Positions 1 to 29,151 of a stretch of DNA of 60,112 nucleotides are shown one piece after another. Source of the DNA: an uncultured Rickettsiales bacterium. GTDB lineage: Bacteria; Pseudomonadota; Alphaproteobacteria; Rickettsiales; Deianiraeaceae. How positions within the stretch are numbered: the first letter of the stretch is position 1; every line of letters starts with the position of its first letter. The translations under genes and the position numbers were made by a program. Under the pieces are notes generated by a model. That model was not told the origin of the DNA and did no database searches. It worked only from the letters and a program-made list of their open reading frames with translations. The DNA lies in contig CAJQOT010000007.1 in the NCBI GenBank assembly GCA_905480015.1, positions 1 through 60,112 of the forward strand, read 5' to 3'.

Positions 1-62
1 TCTTCCATTTCTTGCAAAGCAACTTTGTAGTCGATAGGTTTATCACTAATTTTGAACTCCAT
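1..62 (-). CDS. lipB: Octanoyltransferase LipB, N-terminal fragment (cut by window edge)
   Basis: Only the first 20 codons are in the window, running off its left edge. They read MEFKISDKPIDYKVALQEME, matching the usual LipB N-terminus (a short strand, then a P-(I/V)-D-Y-x-x-A-L-x-x-M-E stretch). LipB moves octanoyl groups from acyl carrier protein to lipoyl domains of 2-oxoacid dehydrogenases, consistent with an lpd gene elsewhere in the window. The start codon lies one base after the fabH stop on the same strand, so the two genes are probably cotranscribed. The call rests on a short segment plus context. Confidence 0.6.
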   Translation of the reverse strand, partial: MEFKISDKPIDYKVALQEME

Positions 63-63
63 T

Positions 64-1011
64 TTAATATTTTAAAGCTATACCGCCCCAAGTGAGCCCA
101 CCGCCAAGTGCCTCTAAAATCACGATATCACCCTTCTTAAACTTTGCCTGCTCCTCCCAAATAGCAAGAGGTATTGTCGCAGATGATGTATTTGCATGTT
201 TATGAATTGTTTTGATAAATTTCTCCTCTGGAATGTCCATCTTCTTTGCAATTGCGTCAAGAATTCTCGCGTTTGCTTGGTGTGGAACAATAAAGTCAAT
301 GTTTTCCTTTGTCATGTTTGCCTTTTCTAATATTTCTAAAATAGACGCATACATTTTAGAGACCGCATGTTTGAAGACATCCTGCCCTTTCATTGTCAAT
401 AGTCCAGTTCCTTGCTGTGAAACTCCACCGCTTGTTTGAAGCATTTCCTGATGTGTACCATCGGAGTGCAAAGAACAAGTAATAATTTGGCTTTCATCGT
501 CTCCTTCTTCAAGAATACACGAACCAGCACCGTCTCCAAATAAAACGCAAGTTGTGCGGTCGGAAAAATCTAAAATACGAGATAGTGTATCCGCACCAAT
601 TACTAAAATTGACTTCGCAATTCCAGACTGAATTAAAGCATTTGCATTTGTTACGGCATATACAAACCCCGCACACACCGCCTGTATATCAAAGGCAAAA
701 TTTGATGAAATTCCACGCTCTTTTAACTTTCTTTGCAAAATACACGCCGTTGAAGGGAATGTTAAATCTGGAGTTGTTGTTGCTACAATAACGCCATCAA
801 CATGATACCTACCCTTAAGTGAAATTAAAGCAGAATTTAATGCTAAATCAGAAGTATATTGACCATCTTTTGCAAAAAATCTTTTTGTGATTCCAGTCCT
901 TTGAACAATCCATTCATCACTTGTGTCAACAAATTGTTGCATATCTTGATTTGTCAGAAATCGTTCAGGTAGATACCCACCCCAAGAACTCACCTTAACT
1001 TTCTTTTGCAT
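64..1011 (-). CDS. fabH: Beta-ketoacyl-ACP synthase III (FabH)
   Basis: FabH starts type II fatty-acid synthesis by condensing acetyl-CoA with malonyl-ACP in the cytosol. The 315-residue length is typical. The thiolase-fold catalytic triad is visible: Cys113 in AVCAGFVYA, His244 in VPHQANARI and Asn274 in KHANTSSA. The C-terminal GGGLTWG glycine-rich motif is also present, as is the N-terminal DEWIVQRTGI signature. The ATG start follows an A/T-rich leader of about 140 bases with no overlapping gene. It sits directly upstream of lipB on the minus strand with a one-base gap, so they likely share a transcript. This is a confident family assignment. Confidence 0.95.
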   Translation of the reverse strand: MQKKVKVSSWGGYLPERFLTNQDMQQFVDTSDEWIVQRTGITKRFFAKDGQYTSDLALNSALISLKGRYHVDGVIVATTTPDLTFPSTACILQRKLKERGISSNFAFDIQAVCAGFVYAVTNANALIQSGIAKSILVIGADTLSRILDFSDRTTCVLFGDGAGSCILEEGDDESQIITCSLHSDGTHQEMLQTSGGVSQQGTGLLTMKGQDVFKHAVSKMYASILEILEKANMTKENIDFIVPHQANARILDAIAKKMDIPEEKFIKTIHKHANTSSATIPLAIWEEQAKFKKGDIVILEALGGGLTWGGIALKY

Positions 1012-1155
1012 TTATTGCGTTTAATTTGACTATATAAAACTTTAAAAAGTTCAAAATACAAGTGGAAATTTCAATATTACAACAATAATACTCATTATTA
1101 ATAAAATTATATGTTGATTAATATCAATGTACTCATCAGTGTTAATTAAAAATAT

Positions 1156-1872
1156 ATGTCAAAGGTGATGTCAAAAGGTGATAAATCCACACTTGCACAC
1201 TTTCTTGACCTTAAATCCCTTATAATACACCTGATATTAGTATTTATTATATCATTTAGTATTTGCCATTACTATGCACCAATTATCATCAATACATTGC
1301 AATTACGCCTTCTTCCTAATTTATCACTTCATTATTTTTCTATTATAGAGCCATTTTTTCTTAAAATTAAAATTTCAGGAATATGCGGAACAATTTTTTG
1401 CATACCTATATTAATTTTGAGAATTACCGTCTACATTATTCCGACGGTCACAAAGAAGCTAGCACTCATAATGCAGTCAATTATTATGTGTATTTTATAT
1501 GTATGTGGAATTATCACGGCATTTTATTTTGTCATACCAAGCATTGTTAATGTACTAATAAATTCCGCACACAATAACATTGCGTTCACACTAAGTGCAA
1601 GCTCGTTTTTTAGTATGGTGACAATAATTATTCTTCTTTTTGGCATAATACTTAATATTCCAATTGTAATTTTCTTACTTCTAAACCATAAAATTTTGAC
1701 AATTCAAAAAATGAAAAAATTTCGCAAACCATACCTTATTGTTAGCTTTATCATTGGAGCCGCCGTCACACCTCCTGATGTACTCAGCCAAATAATTGTT
1801 GGCGTGTTACTTGTATCTTTATTTGAAATGAGCATTATTTGTTTTTCTTTATGCAAAAATACAAAGGAATAA
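1156..1872 (+). CDS. tatC: Sec-independent protein translocase TatC
   Basis: TatC is the multispanning receptor of the twin-arginine system, which exports folded proteins across the inner membrane. The 238-residue protein has about six hydrophobic segments. It keeps the family landmarks: an N-terminal HFLDLKS stretch corresponding to HL-x-ELR, the SIIEPFFLKIKIS loop corresponding to the conserved F-x-x-x-E-x-F region, and TPPDVLSQ before the last helices, ending in a (F/Y)E motif. The sequence is divergent and very Ile/Leu-rich, as expected in an AT-rich genome. A second in-frame ATG four codons later could be the true start. The 3' end overlaps truA by 22 bases, so the two are coupled. No tatA or tatB is visible in the window. 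Confidence 0.87.
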   Translation: MSKVMSKGDKSTLAHFLDLKSLIIHLILVFIISFSICHYYAPIIINTLQLRLLPNLSLHYFSIIEPFFLKIKISGICGTIFCIPILILRITVYIIPTVTKKLALIMQSIIMCILYVCGIITAFYFVIPSIVNVLINSAHNNIAFTLSASSFFSMVTIIILLFGIILNIPIVIFLLLNHKILTIQKMKKFRKPYLIVSFIIGAAVTPPDVLSQIIVGVLLVSLFEMSIICFSLCKNTKE

Positions 1873-2597
1873 TTGAATACGACGGAAGTAAATACTTCGG
1901 TATGCAAAAACAAATTGGAATACCAACTATTCAAAATGCAATCGAAAATGCACTGTCTAAATTTACTGGGGAAGTAAGCAAAACAATTGACTACTGTGGC
2001 AGAACAGACGCAGGCGTTCACGCATTTGGGCAAGTGATTCACTTTGAAGCCCCACAAAAGCCAATAGAACAAGTTCTAAAAGGCGTTAATTATTTTTTAA
2101 ACACACAAAACGAGGCAATATCTATTAAACACATTGCAGAGGTGACGCTTAATTTTCATTCACGATTTTCGTGTATAGGTAGAGAATATAAATATTACAT
2201 CTACAACCACCCAGTTCGTAGCCCAATATTTAACAAAAAAATGCACCACATTTCACAAAATATTAACATTGCCAACATGCACAAAGCCAAGCAATTTCTT
2301 ATTGGGAAACACGACTTTTCATCTTTCCGTGGGAAGGCATGTCAGGCACTCTCCCCTATTAAAACAGTAGACTTCATAAATATCTCACAACCATTAGAAA
2401 ATATTATTGAAATTCACATTGGAGCAAAATCCTTCCTGTATAAAATGGTAAGAAACATTACAGGAGCATTAATATATGCAGGCATCAACCGCATTAAACC
2501 TGAAGAAATACCAAATATTTTAGCACAAAAAGATATCAACGCCCTGCCATACACCGCACCCGCACATGGTCTTTACTTTTGTAAGGCATTGTATTAA
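1851..2597 (+). CDS. truA: tRNA pseudouridine synthase A (TruA)
   Basis: TruA makes pseudouridine at positions 38-40 of the tRNA anticodon arm. The catalytic aspartate lies in GRTDAGVHAFGQV, and the start YKGIIEYDGSKYFGMQ is the usual first strand of the fold. The C-terminal half keeps FLYKMVRNITGAL (family motif F-L-x-x-M-V-R-x-x-x-G). I chose the ATG at 1851 over a TTG at 1839 because it begins immediately before the conserved YxGxxxYDG segment; this gives 248 residues, normal for the family. It overlaps the tatC 3' end, which indicates cotranscription. Confidence 0.95.
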   Translation: MQKYKGIIEYDGSKYFGMQKQIGIPTIQNAIENALSKFTGEVSKTIDYCGRTDAGVHAFGQVIHFEAPQKPIEQVLKGVNYFLNTQNEAISIKHIAEVTLNFHSRFSCIGREYKYYIYNHPVRSPIFNKKMHHISQNINIANMHKAKQFLIGKHDFSSFRGKACQALSPIKTVDFINISQPLENIIEIHIGAKSFLYKMVRNITGALIYAGINRIKPEEIPNILAQKDINALPYTAPAHGLYFCKALY

Positions 2598-2984
2598 AAC
2601 CATATCTTGAACATATTTTTTACAAGATCTTTCTGTGAATTACAAGGCGATGCTTACTAAATACACGCCTGCTATCAACAGGTAAATTTCTTTATAGCAT
2701 TTTATAATCTTTTTTAAGAAATATGTGTTTTTTTAATGAAAAAAGGGGGTTATTTAGCGTAATTATGGCAAAATATCTCACTACTCATAGGGTATTGAAA
2801 AATTTATAAAATATACATCGTGCTTTTATTGGTTATTGCAGTTAAAAAAGCAAATTGCTTCCTTAAAAATTTAATCTGCTCCACTTAAAGAAATAGATAT
2901 ATAAAGAAAAACTCATGAATTTATTGTTATGCAATTCATAGCTAAAGAAAAAATACAAAAGAACTCACGTCGGAGATACATGGT
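2598..2984. other. Intergenic stretch between truA and the phage-like module
   Basis: About 390 A/T-rich bases with no convincing gene. They hold one copy of a 20-base dispersed repeat (2777-2796, minus orientation) and a short Met-initiated reading frame (2929-3030, 33 codons) with arginine-rich content that I do not believe. No tRNA or clear terminator was seen. It marks the left border of the phage-derived holin and lysozyme genes. Confidence 0.5.
2777..2796 (-). repeat. Dispersed 20-base repeat, copy 1
   Basis: On the minus strand this reads AATACCCTATGAGTAGTGAG, identical over 20 bases to copies at 11820-11839 and 26167-26186. All three are intergenic with A/T-rich flanks. It is not a perfect palindrome. 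The function is unknown. Confidence 0.8.
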
Positions 2985-3050
2985 ATGCAAGAAGGTCTGT
3001 CAACTCAGACAAGTGAACTCAAAGAATTAATTATTAAGAATAAATTATGA
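2985..3050 (+). CDS. Short ORF overlapping the holin-like start (phage module)
   Basis: A 21-codon frame (MQEGLSTQTSELKELIIKNK and one more residue) ends in TGA that overlaps the downstream ATG as ATGA, the pattern of translational coupling. The frame stays open upstream to 2946, adding 13 codons without another start, so it may be the tail of a degraded larger gene. The peptide is helical and charged. There is no family recognition. It may be only a coupling leader or a gene remnant. Confidence 0.3.
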   Translation: MQEGLSTQTSELKELIIKNKL

Positions 3051-3622
3051 TACTAGGTTCAATAGCAGGAATACTTGGAGGTGTAGCCAAAGATGCAATA
3101 CTTACAGTAAAAGAGTACAAGGAAAAGAAAGAGGATAGAAGACATGAAATTGCACTTGAAAATGTTCGCAGTGAAAATAAGATTAAGGAGGCCGATGCTG
3201 GCTTTTTAGAGCAGAAAGAAAAAACTAAACAGTCGGAATTTAACCTTAAAACAGAATGGCAAAAAACCCACGGAATTAAAGCAGAAAGTGATGCCGATAT
3301 ACAAAGATCAAATCAAAAAACAGAGGCAGTTAGGTTTAAAGCTCTCACCAATGCAACATCGTACATTGCAAAAGAAACAAATAACAAAATAGTTCAAATT
3401 ATACACGGCATTATTAATATATTCATTGGCACAACAAGACCCATAATAACATATGCATTTATGTACTTTGTGTGGCATATATATAACACAAGCGATGTAG
3501 AAAAAGTATATATTGTCACAAGCTTACTGGAAGCTTTTGGTGCGGTTGTTTCCTTTTGGTTTTACGACAGAGGGATTAAAAGTGTTAGAGAAATTGGGAT
3601 TGTAAAAAAAAAGTCCATATAG
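3047..3622 (+). CDS. Phage holin-like membrane protein
   Basis: This is a 191-residue protein. The N-terminus is short and Gly/Ala-rich (GSIAGILGGVAKDAI). A long charged, coiled-coil-prone region rich in Lys/Glu/Gln follows at about residues 20-105. Two membrane segments close the protein: one around TRPIITYAFMYFVWHIY and one around AFGAVVSFWFYDRGIK. The R-P-x-x-T-Y entry and the S-F-W-F-x-x-R exit are typical of tailed-phage holin-like proteins, which let endolysin reach the cell wall. The ATG overlaps the preceding short ORF as ATGA. The last codons read GTA AAA AAA AAG, an A-rich slippery string, and a lysozyme follows in the -1 frame. The family label is by pattern and context; holins have little sequence conservation. 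Confidence 0.6.
   Translation: MILGSIAGILGGVAKDAILTVKEYKEKKEDRRHEIALENVRSENKIKEADAGFLEQKEKTKQSEFNLKTEWQKTHGIKAESDADIQRSNQKTEAVRFKALTNATSYIAKETNNKIVQIIHGIINIFIGTTRPIITYAFMYFVWHIYNTSDVEKVYIVTSLLEAFGAVVSFWFYDRGIKSVREIGIVKKKSI
3604..3613 (+). promoter_or_regulatory. Candidate -1 ribosomal frameshift site (nine A then G)
   Basis: In the holin frame the codons are GTA AAA AAA AAG. This contains the heptamer A-AAA-AAG, the most efficient bacterial -1 slippery sequence (used by dnaX and IS3-type elements). A -1 slip here leaves the holin frame nine bases before its TAG and enters the lysozyme frame, which has no usual start codon of its own. A GGGA at 3596-3599 could act as a weak stimulatory Shine-Dalgarno. 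The alternatives are transcriptional slippage on the A tract, a real decay mutation, or an assembly indel. Confidence 0.5.
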
Positions 3623-4083
3623 AGCGGGAAGTTGATAATGCATTTTTACAAGCAATTTGTCTAATCAAAAAATTTGAGGGATTAAGATTAAAATCTTATA
3701 AATGCTCCGCTAATGTTTGGACTATTGGGTATGGTAACACTTCTTATTTAAATGGTTTTGATGATCCTCAGAATGTTATAATTTCAAAAGAAAAAGCTGA
3801 GGAATTGATATTACATAATGCTAAAGAATACTATGATTGCGTTGTTGAAAAGGTTGGTGATGTTTGCAATTCTAACCAAATTATATCTCTGACTTCACTG
3901 TGTTTTAATATTGGCGTGAATGCTTTTTGCAGGTCAACTCTTTTGAAAGTTGCAAAGAAGAATCCTCATAATTTTCCTGAAATAGAAAAACAGTTTATGC
4001 GTTGGATTTATGCCGATGGGAGTGTTAATATGGGGCTGAGAAAAAGGAGGGAGGAGGAAGTTAAAATATATCGTGAACTTTAG
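3607..4083 (+). CDS. Phage-type lysozyme (GH24), in the -1 frame behind the holin gene
   Basis: The enzyme cleaves the glycan strands of peptidoglycan. The frame reads FEGLRLKSYKCSANVWTIGY, then FNIGVNAFCRSTLL, QFMRWIYADG and GLRKRREEE, a full GH24 (P1/P22-type) lysozyme. The active-site spacing is E-8 residues-C-5 residues-T, with Cys where T4 lysozyme has Asp, as in P1 Lyz-type endolysins. The frame is open from 3589, but there is no ATG, GTG or TTG before the catalytic Glu. The first TTG, at 3805, would delete the active site. Expression therefore needs a -1 shift from the holin frame (a fusion of roughly 345 residues), an unusual ATA/ATT start, or it is a pseudogene. In a fusion the holin helices would anchor the lysozyme in the membrane. 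Confidence 0.7.
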   Translation, partial: KKVHIEREVDNAFLQAICLIKKFEGLRLKSYKCSANVWTIGYGNTSYLNGFDDPQNVIISKEKAEELILHNAKEYYDCVVEKVGDVCNSNQIISLTSLCFNIGVNAFCRSTLLKVAKKNPHNFPEIEKQFMRWIYADGSVNMGLRKRREEEVKIYREL

Positions 4084-4256
4084 TTGAAAAACCACCACAC
4101 GACCTTCCCAATACTTCTTTTCTTTTTTAAAATTAACATAAGTATTATTTTTATTTGATATATAGATAGGGATTTACCAGTTATATGGTAAAATAATGTT
4201 TGATTTTTCTAAAATTTTGTTTAAGGTAACAAATATAATTGTTTTATTGCATTGCT

Positions 4257-4775
4257 ATGGATATATCACGAATTTCCTGTGGGAAAAGCTTTCCTCAAAA
4301 TATTAATGTTGTTATAGAAATTCCAGCAAATTCACCTGGTGTAAAGTACGAGTTTTGCAAAGATTCTGGCGCACTATTTGTCGATAGATTTCTGCAAACA
4401 CCAATGCATTATCCTGCAAACTATGGATTTGTGCCAAATACTCTTTCTGGCGATGGCGATCCCATTGATGTTTTAGTGGTGTCGAAGTATAATCTTACCC
4501 CTGGGTCAGTCATCGAAGCAAAGCCTATTGGTGTTTTAATAACACAAGATGAAAAAGGAATGGATGAAAAAATTATTGCAGTACCTTCTAACGCTGTTAG
4601 TGCAGAGTATATCAATATTAATAATATTGATGATTTACCACAATTAACACGAGATCAAATACAGCATTTTTTTGAGCATTATAAAGATTTAGAAAGTGGA
4701 AAATTTGTAAAAGTGGAAAATTTTCTAGGTGCCGTGGAGGCGAAAGAAATTCTAGTAAAATCAATGCAAACTTAA
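4257..4775 (+). CDS. ppa: Inorganic pyrophosphatase (family I)
   Basis: This soluble enzyme hydrolyses pyrophosphate and drives biosynthetic reactions forward. The 172 residues contain the family I signature GDGDPIDVLVV, whose aspartates bind metal. They also contain the N-terminal IEIPANSPGVKYEF and the HYPANYGFVPNT segment. The ATG at 4257 is preferred to an in-frame TTG at 4239, since family members begin only a few residues before the IEIP strand. The gene stands alone: a stretch of about 170 bases separates it from the phage module, with a possible weak hairpin (arms AATACTT and AAGTATT) after the lysozyme. The downstream neighbour is convergent. Confidence 0.95.
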   Translation: MDISRISCGKSFPQNINVVIEIPANSPGVKYEFCKDSGALFVDRFLQTPMHYPANYGFVPNTLSGDGDPIDVLVVSKYNLTPGSVIEAKPIGVLITQDEKGMDEKIIAVPSNAVSAEYININNIDDLPQLTRDQIQHFFEHYKDLESGKFVKVENFLGAVEAKEILVKSMQT

Positions 4776-4938
4776 CAAGAATACATCAATATATATTTAC
4801 ACTAGCACGGCATCTTTAAAGCAGAGAATAAAAATATATTCTAGACCACTAAAGAACAAGGTAGGCATAACGCAAAATATCTATATCATTCTTATACTTT
4901 GTGAGTTTTACGACGGCTGTGGTAAAAGTGTATACTTT

Positions 4939-5532
4939 CTAAAGTAATATATTAATTTCTTTAATTAACTGCTTTTTGCTCAGTTTTTTTACCTCTTTAG
5001 AGTTTACAAACACACTTGGAGTTCCGCGTATTGATAACACCTTGCCATACTCAAACACACGGCTAGCAATACTTTTTTCATTAACATTGTTAACGCATTT
5101 TTTATCAATTTTAGTAAGAGAAAGCAATGACTCTATATATTTTTTATCTGCAAGAAGAATGCTCTGATTTTTGTATATTTGTAATATTGTCTCTATTTTA
5201 TTTTTAGAACATTGCACGACCTTTGTTGCAAATAATGCACGCTTGTCTAGTGGGAATTCTTTGTGAACGAAGGAAATTTTACCACTATCAATGTATTCAA
5301 GTAGCAATGGAAAAATTTCGGTGTAAAATCTTGCACAATGTACACATGAATATGAATCAAAAACTACAACTTTAACATTTGCATTCTTATTGCCAAGAAC
5401 AAGCTCTCCACTCAATGGATTCAACAACTCTTCCTTCGAGTGGAATTCTTGTGCATTACGCAAAGACACATGAAGATTTGATTTTGCAAAAACTATTAAT
5501 GGCAACAATGCAATGGCAATCAATATCCTCAT
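4939..5532 (-). CDS. DsbA-like periplasmic thiol oxidoreductase
   Basis: The protein has a cleavable signal peptide (MRILIAIALLPLIVFAKS). A thioredoxin-fold DsbA/DsbG-type domain follows with the active-site motif Cys63-Val-His-Cys66 in DSYSCVHCARFY and a cis-proline in GTPSVFVN. It likely introduces or isomerises disulfides in exported proteins; cysteine-rich exported proteins occur elsewhere in this window. I used the ATG at 5532 rather than the TTG at 5544 because it begins the signal peptide directly. It lies 16 bases downstream of pnp on the same strand, so cotranscription is likely. At 197 residues it matches the rickettsial DsbA-like family. Whether it acts as oxidase or isomerase cannot be told. 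Confidence 0.85.
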   Translation of the reverse strand: MRILIAIALLPLIVFAKSNLHVSLRNAQEFHSKEELLNPLSGELVLGNKNANVKVVVFDSYSCVHCARFYTEIFPLLLEYIDSGKISFVHKEFPLDKRALFATKVVQCSKNKIETILQIYKNQSILLADKKYIESLLSLTKIDKKCVNNVNEKSIASRVFEYGKVLSIRGTPSVFVNSKEVKKLSKKQLIKEINILL

Positions 5533-26365: not shown

Positions 26366-26626
26366 ATGTCTAAAGCTAAATTTCTAAGTTCTACAAAAAG
26401 TGCTTTAAAATCTACCGCGACTGTTGCCGTTGCCGTTGTTGCAACTGCTGGTCTTTCTGCTTGTGCTGGTGGTATGCACACTTGCATGGGAAAAGGTAAA
26501 AGTTCTTGTAACTCTACCGTAAAAGAAGGAAAGTCAAATTGTTGTTCTTCTGGAAAAGAATGCAAAATGGGTTGTTCTTCAAAAATGAAGGAAGGAAAAA
26601 CACATTGCTCATCTTCCAAGAAGTAA
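26366..26626 (+). CDS. Cys-rich exported precursor peptide of an MNIO (bufferin/HvfA-type) system
   Basis: The 86-residue protein has a basic N-terminus and a hydrophobic signal (ATVAVAVVATAGLSAC). A mature part of about 53 residues follows with eight Cys in total (33, 40, 48, 59, 60, 66, 70, 81). The mature part is built on a short repeat: GKSSC, GKSNCC, GKEC and GKTHC, two of them inside EGK-x-x-C. HvfA-type substrates of MNIO enzymes carry EGKC motifs whose Cys is converted to copper-binding oxazolone/thioamide-like groups; this variant adds two residues before Cys. L-S-A-C33 also fits a lipobox, so it may be a lipoprotein. I took the ATG at 26366 because it starts the signal directly; earlier ATGs at 26282 and 26336 would put unrelated sequence before it. 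It is first in the operon with the MNIO gene 17 bases downstream. Confidence 0.8.
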   Translation: MSKAKFLSSTKSALKSTATVAVAVVATAGLSACAGGMHTCMGKGKSSCNSTVKEGKSNCCSSGKECKMGCSSKMKEGKTHCSSSKK

Positions 26627-26643
26627 GGCATTTTAACATAATT

Positions 26644-27462
26644 ATGGTGGGAAAAATGTTTGGTTTAGGGCTAAGGCATCCTCACCATAATTATGTGTTA
26701 CAAAATAAACCAAAAGTAGACTTCCTTGAAGTACATACTGAAAATTTTATTGCCGAAGGCGGTGCTTCTTTAGACTTCCTTGAGAAAATATCAGATCTTT
26801 ATAAATTAAGCTTTCATTGTGTTGGTATATCTTTAGGGTCTAGCAATGGATTGGACGCTCAACACTTACAAAGTACAAAAAACCTCCTTGATACATTCAA
26901 GCCCTTCTTATTTTCAGACCACCTTTCATGGAGTAACTCACCCAGCCAAGGACTTTCAAACGACTTACTACCCATTTCATATACACAAAAGTCTTTAGAT
27001 AACTTTTGCCAAAATGTGAACCAAGCTCAAGATTACTTTGGAAGAAAAATACTTATAGAAAACCCATCCGCTTATTTAGAATATCACGAAAGTGATATAT
27101 CTGAAGTAGATTTTATAAACGAATTAGCCAACAAAACAGACTGTGACATTCTTTTAGACATCAACAATGTTTATGTTAGTTCACAAAATTTTAATTTTTG
27201 TGCAACGGAGTACCTCAAGCAAATTGACCACACAAAAGTAAAAGAAATTCACCTTGCAGGGCACAGCATTTATGAATTTCAAGGGCAAAATATTAGAATT
27301 GACACCCACAACACGCATATTTGTGATGAAGTTTTAGAATTATACCAAAACTTCATAAAAACAACAAATTTACAAGTTCCAACATTGGTTGAATGGGACG
27401 ATGACATCCCTGAATTTGAAGTTTTATACAATGAGTTAGAAAAAGTGAAGTCTTTAACATGA
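26644..27462 (+). CDS. MNIO-family enzyme (DUF692), peptide-modifying oxidase
   Basis: MNIO enzymes (multinuclear non-haem iron oxidative enzymes: MbnB, TglH, ChrH, BufB, HvfB) use two or three irons to rearrange peptide cysteines with O2. This 272-residue TIM-barrel-type protein has the full motif series: GLGLRHPHH, DFLEVHTENF, HCVGISLGSSNGLD, SDHLSWS, ILIENPSAYL, ILLDINNVYVSSQNF, EIHLAGH, DTHNTH and LVEWDDDIPEF. The metal-ligand His, Glu, Asp and Asn residues are therefore kept. The usual H-G-V-G is H-C-V-G here. ATG choices are 26644 and 26656; I used the first. Its stop overlaps the next gene's upstream ATG. The adjacent Cys-rich peptide is its likely substrate. Confidence 0.92.
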   Translation: MVGKMFGLGLRHPHHNYVLQNKPKVDFLEVHTENFIAEGGASLDFLEKISDLYKLSFHCVGISLGSSNGLDAQHLQSTKNLLDTFKPFLFSDHLSWSNSPSQGLSNDLLPISYTQKSLDNFCQNVNQAQDYFGRKILIENPSAYLEYHESDISEVDFINELANKTDCDILLDINNVYVSSQNFNFCATEYLKQIDHTKVKEIHLAGHSIYEFQGQNIRIDTHNTHICDEVLELYQNFIKTTNLQVPTLVEWDDDIPEFEVLYNELEKVKSLT

Positions 27463-27465
27463 AAA

Positions 27466-27473
27466 AGGAGGTG
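27466..27473 (+). promoter_or_regulatory. Strong ribosome-binding site deciding the DUF2063 start
   Basis: AGGAGGTG lies 8 bases (from the end of AGGAGG) before the ATG at 27480. It marks that codon, not the overlapping ATG at 27459, as the main start. Such a perfect site is rare in this window, implying high translation. Confidence 0.75.
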
Positions 27474-27479
27474 AAAAAT

Positions 27480-28163
27480 ATGCAAAACAATTTTATTTCT
27501 CATTTATATAATGAGAAAAATCTCGATATACTGCCATCAATAAAAAATGGCAAAGCCCCAAAAGAAGAACTTTTAGATATTTACCGAAACAATCTTTTTA
27601 CGAACTTAACAAATGCTCTACAGCTTTTGTATCCTAGAATTTATAAATACCTTGGTACAGAAAAATTTCACAATGAAGCAAAAAAATTCATAACAAACAA
27701 CCGATCACAAAGTGGAAATCTTGACAATTATGGACAAGGCTTTTTACAAAATAACAATAAATTTTTACATGATTTATCACAATTTGAATGGCTTCATCAT
27801 TTATCTTATTTAGCAAAAGATAACAAAGAATTAAATGTAAAAGCACTGCAAACCCTAGAAGAAGATCAGCTGTTTAATGTGACATTTAAAATACATCCAT
27901 CATGTTTTGTACATACATCATATTACAACTTTCTCAATAAAAACCTTCAAAATAAACTACAAAAAAGAAAATCACACTATGTGGTTTACCGGCAAAACCT
28001 TACAGTAAAAGCAGAAAAAATACTTACAGGGGAATATAAATTTCTTATGGGAGTCAAAGAAGATATGACACTATACGAAGTGTACACAAAACATAAAATA
28101 GACATTCAAACCTGTTTACAAAAGTTCTTAACGAATGGTATTTTATGTGAATTTAATTGTTAG
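27480..28163 (+). CDS. DUF2063 protein, MNIO partner (BufC/HvfC-type)
   Basis: DUF2063 proteins bind the precursor peptide and deliver it to the MNIO enzyme. The 227-residue product keeps the N-terminal family pattern IYRNNLFTNLTNALQLLYPRIYKYLG, then EKFHNEAKKFI, a GNLDNYGQGFL segment and a DLSQFEWL segment where most have LEW. The C-terminal half, around FNVTFKIHPSC and LTVKAEKILTGEYKFL, corresponds to the peptide-binding domain. The start is set by AGGAGGTG at 27466. It is the third gene of the operon after the DUF692 gene, and the DoxX-like gene follows. Confidence 0.88.
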   Translation: MQNNFISHLYNEKNLDILPSIKNGKAPKEELLDIYRNNLFTNLTNALQLLYPRIYKYLGTEKFHNEAKKFITNNRSQSGNLDNYGQGFLQNNNKFLHDLSQFEWLHHLSYLAKDNKELNVKALQTLEEDQLFNVTFKIHPSCFVHTSYYNFLNKNLQNKLQKRKSHYVVYRQNLTVKAEKILTGEYKFLMGVKEDMTLYEVYTKHKIDIQTCLQKFLTNGILCEFNC

Positions 28164-28182
28164 ATCATTTATTATATGTTAT

Positions 28183-28620
28183 ATGTCAAAAATTAAAAAC
28201 TTATACCAACTATTGCAAACCGCTTATGGTAAGTATGTAAAAATTTTAGAAAAATATCTATCATCAGTATTACTTTTGGCGATACGAATATGGATTGGTT
28301 TGGTATTTTTTAAAAGTGGACTTGTAAAGCTATCCAATATAGACTCTGCAATTATGTTATTCACCTATGAATATAGCTTGCCATTTGTACCACCAATACT
28401 TGCAACTATCATAGCAATGACCTTCGAACTTGCCTGTGGTTTATGTATTATTTTAGGGCTTTTAACAAGAATCACTGCACTTCCACTAATTGGAATGACG
28501 CTTGTAATACAACTATTAGTTTTTCAGAATCAGGAGCATTTTTATTGGCTGTTTTTACTGTCTGTGTTATCTGTGTATGGCGGCGGAAGAATATCATCTG
28601 ATTATGTAATAAAAAAATAA
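28183..28620 (+). CDS. DoxX-family membrane protein of the MNIO operon
   Basis: The protein has 145 residues with four hydrophobic segments. LLLAIRIWIGLVFFKSGLVKL is the classic DoxX first helix (R-x-x-x-G-x-x-F-x-x-x-G-x-x-K), followed by FELACGLCIILGLLTRITALPL. DoxX-like genes are the fourth member (HvfD/BufD-like) of many MNIO operons, where they may handle electrons or metal at the membrane; the exact role is not established. The ATG at 28183 is preferred to an earlier in-frame one at 28135 inside the upstream gene, because the protein then starts just before the amphipathic N-terminus. A 144-base gap follows, ending the operon. Confidence 0.85.
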   Translation: MSKIKNLYQLLQTAYGKYVKILEKYLSSVLLLAIRIWIGLVFFKSGLVKLSNIDSAIMLFTYEYSLPFVPPILATIIAMTFELACGLCIILGLLTRITALPLIGMTLVIQLLVFQNQEHFYWLFLLSVLSVYGGGRISSDYVIKK

Positions 28621-28764: not shown

Positions 28765-29151
28765 ATGGAGGGGACAATTATTGAATTTACGGACATAATC
28801 CGCCTTGTAATTTCTGGAGGCGTGAATGGCTTTATAAGCATGTGGACACAATTTAAGACAATATTTTCACCAAAGGATGCCTTTGCATTTATTGAAAGCA
28901 TTACCGTACTGCTGACGCCAGCGTTTGCATTATTTACAGGATATATGACTAAAATGATGGGCTCTAAGTTTAAGTATGGCCTGCTTGGCGGTGCATTAGC
29001 TGGGATAATTGCATTTTTTATTCCACAAACCTTCAATGGCAAAGGTCGCTCTAATAACAATAATGAAATGATTGTTGAAATCGCAAAAGATTCTGGTATT
29101 TCTATGTCCACTGTTAAGGATCGTGCTTTAGAAGCCTACAAGGAGAAATAA
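28765..29151 (+). CDS. Membrane protein of unknown function, 128 residues
   Basis: Two hydrophobic segments stand out: SITVLLTPAFALFTGYMT (about residues 45-62) and YGLLGGALAGIIAFFIP (about 71-87). They are preceded by an amphipathic segment (DIIRLVISGGVNGFISMW). The C-terminus is polar (NGKGRSNNNNEMIVEIAKDSG...) and ends in a short helix. The profile is holin-like, but no phage genes are nearby. A possible promoter TTGCAA...TATATT lies in the 144-base gap upstream. I do not recognise the family. Confidence 0.65.
   Translation: MEGTIIEFTDIIRLVISGGVNGFISMWTQFKTIFSPKDAFAFIESITVLLTPAFALFTGYMTKMMGSKFKYGLLGGALAGIIAFFIPQTFNGKGRSNNNNEMIVEIAKDSGISMSTVKDRALEAYKEK

Follow-up and report, generated by a model that had tools for sequence, protein, structure and literature searches.

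Characterised MNIO-PME1 systems have been reported to yield 5-thiooxazoles (PMC13097082), and the characterised thiooxazole peptides of the bufferin branch bind copper (PMC13097082, PMC12452194). In the DUF2282 bufferins (Buf1) the central cysteines are the modified ones (PMC12452194), and the Sec signal peptide serves as the leader in bufferin and HvfA maturation, according to PMC13419390, which cites Junger 2026. Lipidated precursors are also known: NedA and DybA have been shown to be lipidated and modified, with NedA, a lipidated EGKCG peptide, undergoing both processes in E. coli (PMC12636315), and a lipoprotein is predicted for about 16% of Buf2 bufferins (PMC12452194, PMC12636315). Hundreds of unclassified cysteine-containing precursors encoded before MNIOs, as well as lipidated bufferins and oxazolins, have already been reported (PMC12452194, PMC12636315).

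Here we describe a locus in a 60,112-nucleotide stretch of DNA, hereafter the window, from an uncultured Rickettsiales bacterium of the Deianiraeaceae (contig CAJQOT010000007.1 of GCA_905480015.1, an assembly of 95 contigs at 92.8% completeness). We consider it likely that the locus is a RiPP operon of the bufferin (captophorin) type with a short cysteine-rich lipoprotein as its precursor, and that its enzymes probably modify a Buf1 peptide encoded elsewhere in the genome as well.

Organization of the operon

Open reading frames and Pfam matches define four collinear genes on the + strand at 26366–28620, encoding a cysteine-rich peptide (SLP), an MNIO, a DUF2063 protein and a DoxX protein (Table 1), in the bufferin order that an initial annotation had recognised. 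The intergenic distances are 17 nt (SLP–MNIO), 17 nt (MNIO–DUF2063) and 19 nt (DUF2063–DoxX), so that the spacing of 17 bases or less given in that annotation applies to the first two and not to the third. ATGs that would give longer forms lie upstream of the SLP start, and MSKAKFL was chosen because relatives support it. The perfect ribosome site noted before the DUF2063 gene, AGGAGGTG, is real and fits an ATG start at 27480. An ATGA overlap, noted alongside it, is also real but belongs to another, upstream candidate start of the same ORF, at 27459. The two were rejected as marks of a single start, and since they serve different starts only one is likely to be used. A promoter and terminator scan gave signals no more than in shuffles. 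A 128-aa ORF after the operon (28765–29151, + strand) matches nothing in Pfam or PHROGs and nothing meaningful in NCBIfam.

Table 1. Features of the operon, in window coordinates.
Feature	Position	Strand	Basis
Cys-rich precursor (SLP), 86 aa, probable lipoprotein, with GKSSC, GKSNCC, GKEC and GKTHC	26366..26626	+	ORF, relatives, motif test
SLP signal peptide and lipobox, residues 1–33, MSKAKFL...GLSA↓C33, candidate leader	26366..26464	+	Lipobox pattern, signal-peptide comparison
MNIO (BufB-type) enzyme; start may be 26656	26644..27462	+	PF05114, MNIO_BufB, conserved motifs
AGGAGGTG ribosome-binding site of the DUF2063 gene	27466..27473	+	Sequence
DUF2063-RRE partner (BufC-like, PME type 1); alternative start 27459	27480..28163	+	PF09836, fold matches
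DoxX family membrane protein, HvfX-like but under the HvfX cutoff	28183..28620	+	PF07681

The MNIO enzyme and its partners

The MNIO matches PF05114 (E=1.2e-94) and passes the NCBIfam MNIO_BufB model (NF050167) with 336.8 bits against a curated cutoff of 310, which places it within the bufferin-maturase group; it fails the HvfB model (NF003818; 228.1 bits, curated cutoff 360). The motifs conserved with 3BWW and MbnB (FHCVG, SDH, ENPS, LDINN, EIHLAG, DTH and VEWD) are all there, as the initial annotation had it, and the NN and DTH motifs hold residues needed for HvfB activity (PMC13419390). Aligned to 3BWW, the enzyme has D in place of the F of ERDFN, and RH in place of RR. Phe and Arg at the FonB sites are tied to EGKCG enzymes (PMC13097082 and its preprint), and we infer that those sites map onto these 3BWW positions.

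In the MNIO tree the window enzyme lies in one clade in which enzymes associated with Buf1, with SLP and with both are mixed. MNIOs 57–70% identical to it are found in other families of the order. Searches of the genus (its three other genomes) and the family (14 genomes) turned up no such MNIO, and a separate contig scan with the window MNIO returned only matches of 36–43% identity, from other groups. Elsewhere, single ORFs of 515–562 aa in three genomes (loci L012, L014 and L015 of G034, G040 and G036) encode an MNIO first and then a second domain, and are likely natural MNIO–partner fusions.

The DUF2063 protein matches PF09836 (E=1.1e-19), and its AlphaFold2 model (pLDDT 90.6) has its best fold matches in NGO1945 (3DEE; 206 columns, TM 0.62/0.70) and TglI, the architecture of type-1 MNIO partners (PMC12452194). 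The model thus indicates the composition that defines such partners, in which an RRE-type domain comes after DUF2063, as seen in NGO1945. The protein scores below the HvfC cutoff (NF050145; 37.7 bits, curated 142), as the DoxX protein, which matches PF07681 (E=1e-16), does below that of HvfX (NF050144; 55.3 bits, curated 80). In two relatives with SLP only (L057 and L058), the DUF2063 proteins (about 204 and 200 aa) share two internal deletions.

The SLP precursor

The window SLP has no Pfam match and no meaningful NCBIfam match, and no plasmid record matches it. It is not a Buf1, as a PF10048 match with four conserved cysteines is absent, and it lacks the EGKCG motif of the oxazolin (Buf_EGKCG) precursors; the statement that it is neither a DUF2282 nor an EGKC form therefore holds. 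There are two features of note. First, GK at positions −4/−3 of a cysteine occurs three times in the mature peptide, compared with 0.22 expected from shuffles (p about 0.0003). Second, the signal peptide ends in the lipobox LSA↓C (LSSC, LASC and LSAC in near relatives), a call made by sequence pattern rather than by SignalP. This lipobox suggests that the SLP is probably a lipoprotein, and by pattern it supplies the sequence hallmark of DAG-RiPPs, a lipobox signal peptide on an MNIO-associated precursor. The mature product would be a lipid-anchored tail with seven cysteines beyond Cys33.

A direct search across the order with the window SLP recovers a single clear relative (in G245); the other weak matches examined were mostly Buf1 precursors or noise. 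The peptide belongs to a small lineage family (SLP) adjoining related MNIOs. The arrangements vary. Beside the MNIO, G031 and G242 have a DUF2282 bufferin without SLP, and G118 and G245 an SLP without Buf1; both precursors are present in G171 (Buf1-SLP-MNIO-DUF2063-DoxX) and G048 (SLP-MNIO-DUF2063-Buf1-DoxX). G118 is split as the window genome is: its SLP adjoins the MNIO, and its Buf1 is encoded on a different contig. Cysteine-rich lipoprotein-like precursors less similar to the window SLP occur in clades further away (G018, G098 and part of genus g51). G098 also encodes a DUF2282 bufferin with TTSC at the end of its signal peptide (L064, 1175–1477), possibly a lipidated Buf1.

Although it matches no family, the SLP resembles Buf1 in several respects. 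An SLP profile run over 263 genomes has Buf1 precursors among its next matches (G031, E=1.5e-7; G242, E=2.8e-6). Across 11 SLPs, K occupies position −3 of a cysteine 25 times (9.6 expected from shuffles), N or H position −2 also 25 times (3.2 expected), and GK positions −4/−3 ten times (0.7 expected); the family is small and the sequences are related, so that the shuffle p-values, which ignore kinship, overstate independence. The resulting GKxxC and xHxC contexts match those around the two central cysteines of Buf1 in these genomes (AGKNDC and HSCAG). The SLP contexts do differ among genomes, and G118 has lost cysteine from two of its four repeats. The signal peptides are also alike: those of the window SLP and four near relatives are nearer to Buf1 signal peptides than are all 101 control secreted N-termini, which were taken from the window genome and G031 by a simple rule rather than by SignalP. 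The score is the mean against seven Buf1 signal peptides of the clade, with the own genome left out; this pairwise scoring was used because a loose regular expression for the motif separated the controls poorly. This likeness bears on function, the Sec signal peptide being the leader in bufferin maturation. The window SLP is thus less alien than the initial annotation held: its proposal of a new precursor subclass is borne out in that no family matches, and is weakened in that this is a lineage family with Buf1-like cysteine contexts and signal peptide. That annotation missed the lipobox, the GKxxC likeness to the Buf1 core motif and a second, orphan bufferin gene.

An orphan bufferin and gene remnants

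A different contig of the window genome, C67, carries the gene for a canonical DUF2282 bufferin (locus L021, 4622–4891), which scores 77.3 and 76.9 bits against PF10048 in two runs (cutoff 22.4). Shortly after its stop codon, SVFLTNGILCKINC* matches the C-terminus of the window DUF2063 protein, QKFLTNGILCEFNC*. Among 432,258 15-mers tested it ranks first, with a score of 59 against 40 for the runner-up, and over the first eight aligned residues the codons differ by synonymous changes only. At 4622–4944 the order is thus orphan Buf1, DUF2063 3′ remnant and then an ArsP_1-type permease. The simplest reading of the remnant is that a second bufferin operon was once present here, of which the MNIO gene and the greater part of the DUF2063 gene have disappeared; the C67 Buf1 may now depend on the window enzymes. 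Another orphan Buf1, in a genome without an MNIO (L185 of G185, 1–4613), has a heavy-metal RND efflux-like gene on one side and a permease gene on the other.

The converse loss is seen in G195 (97% complete), where no MNIO was detected yet the SLP gene is kept. Its core cysteines are gone (KEEKVKDSS, KGEKTKEAK), and about 50 nt 3′ of it lies a remnant of an MNIO N-terminus, IFGLGLRHPHRNTIFKKA*, within which FGLGLRHPH is identical at 9/9 positions. There is a terminator-like hairpin between the decayed SLP and the remnant (L194, contig C138, 1420–1860). The decay of the MNIO amounts to a natural knock-out in which the peptide has lost its core cysteines. Three further genomes (G162, G221 and G248) have one MNIO with a cysteine-rich lipoprotein before it and no detected Buf1. 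We argue from these, and from the one genome in which MNIO and core cysteines are both lost, that the SLP cysteines are retained for the MNIO.

Possible function and alternatives

A Cu-exporting P-type ATPase (TIGR01511) was undetected in the window genome by a model positive in 14/14 control genomes, and a heme-copper oxidase is present, a combination that makes periplasmic copper buffering plausible for this bacterium. The initial annotation also raised copper toxicity imposed by a host as a possibility; a search for TLC transporters, as a proxy for intracellular life, was silent in the window genome and in the controls alike. In the mechanism that we propose, the DUF2063-RRE partner would bind the precursor in the cytoplasm through its signal peptide, acting as leader, and present it to the iron-dependent MNIO, which would convert cysteines in GKxxC and xHxC contexts to 5-thiooxazoles (−4 Da each). 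The modified SLP would be exported through Sec, lipidated at Cys33 by Lgt and cut by LspA to give a membrane-anchored copper-binding tail in the periplasm, with DoxX in an assisting role. The same MNIO/DUF2063 pair would probably modify the soluble C67 bufferin in trans, its own enzyme genes having been lost. That one pair serves both a soluble Buf1 in trans and a lipid-anchored GKxxC peptide with a Buf1-like leader and core is a more tentative proposition, to which we give slightly less than an even chance; if true, a genome with no detectable Cu-exporting ATPase would supply the cell with two copper buffers, one free and one tethered to the membrane.

It seems unlikely that the MNIO acts only on the Buf1 encoded elsewhere, with the SLP an unmodified metallothionein-like metal binder cooperating with the bufferin. 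MNIO and Buf1 are indeed strongly associated across the order (57 genomes carry the two, Fisher p=1.6e-36), the window genome has a Buf1, and the SLP cysteine contexts are variable, all as such a division of labour would have it; against it, G245 and the three genomes named above have an MNIO and a cysteine-rich lipoprotein with no detected Buf1, the SLP shares Buf1-like leader and core contexts, and its cysteines are lost where the MNIO is lost. It also appears improbable that this bufferin-like system deals mainly with redox stress or with a metal other than copper. The characterised thiooxazole peptides of this branch bind copper, and the genome has the oxidase without a detected exporter, notwithstanding the redox and sulfur roles of DoxX homologues, the MerC fusions that suggest other metals for some bufferins (both PMC12452194) and the position of the orphan Buf1 before an ArsP_1-type permease.

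We regard as very improbable a reading of the SLP as a divergent precursor of the EGKCG/oxazolin (Lys-Cys) type and of the operon as an HvfABCD homologue. The KEGK repeats (KEGKSNCC, KEGKTHC) resemble EGKCG, and lipidated oxazolins exist (PMC12636315), but there is no EGKCG or KC dyad, K and C being two residues apart; the MNIO passes BufB and fails HvfB, the partner and DoxX proteins are below the HvfC and HvfX cutoffs, and the residues aligned with the Phe and Arg of EGKCG-linked FonB are changed. We favor a bufferin-type operon, and the lineage is a natural experiment in substrate choice by MNIO enzymes. Since enzymes 57–70% identical adjoin Buf1, SLP or both, the features shared by these precursors predict what the enzyme pair reads, namely a KFL-type leader and K at −3 or N/H at −2 of the cysteine.

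Comparison with known systems

The oxazolin and fontiphorin systems (EGKCG; HvfABC, FonABC) have in common with the window a repeated GK before cysteine, an MNIO-PME1 pair and a signal peptide, but the window peptide has no EGKCG, its MNIO fails the HvfB model and its partner that of HvfC. With the DAG-RiPPs DybA and NedA it shares a lipobox signal peptide on an MNIO-associated precursor, whereas the motif differs and lipidation of the SLP is predicted. Buf2 peptides (6/12 Cys, GKNACKG) have similar GKNxC-like contexts and include predicted lipoproteins, but their six-cysteine pattern is absent from the window peptide by inspection. According to PMC12452194 (Table S2), unclassified signal-peptide cysteine precursors before MNIOs can be expected to form many minor groups, and the SLP family may be among them. 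Buf1 operons such as that of Caulobacter vibrioides share the order precursor-MNIO-DUF2063-DoxX, a BufB-class MNIO, a Sec signal peptide, and GKxxC and HxC contexts; unlike them, the window operon has a precursor without DUF2282 and with a lipobox and repeated GKxxC, and its genome's DUF2282 precursor is on another contig. The system is thus of the bufferin type and not a new kind; what is new is the probably lipid-anchored, lineage-specific precursor variant that it adds to the bufferins.
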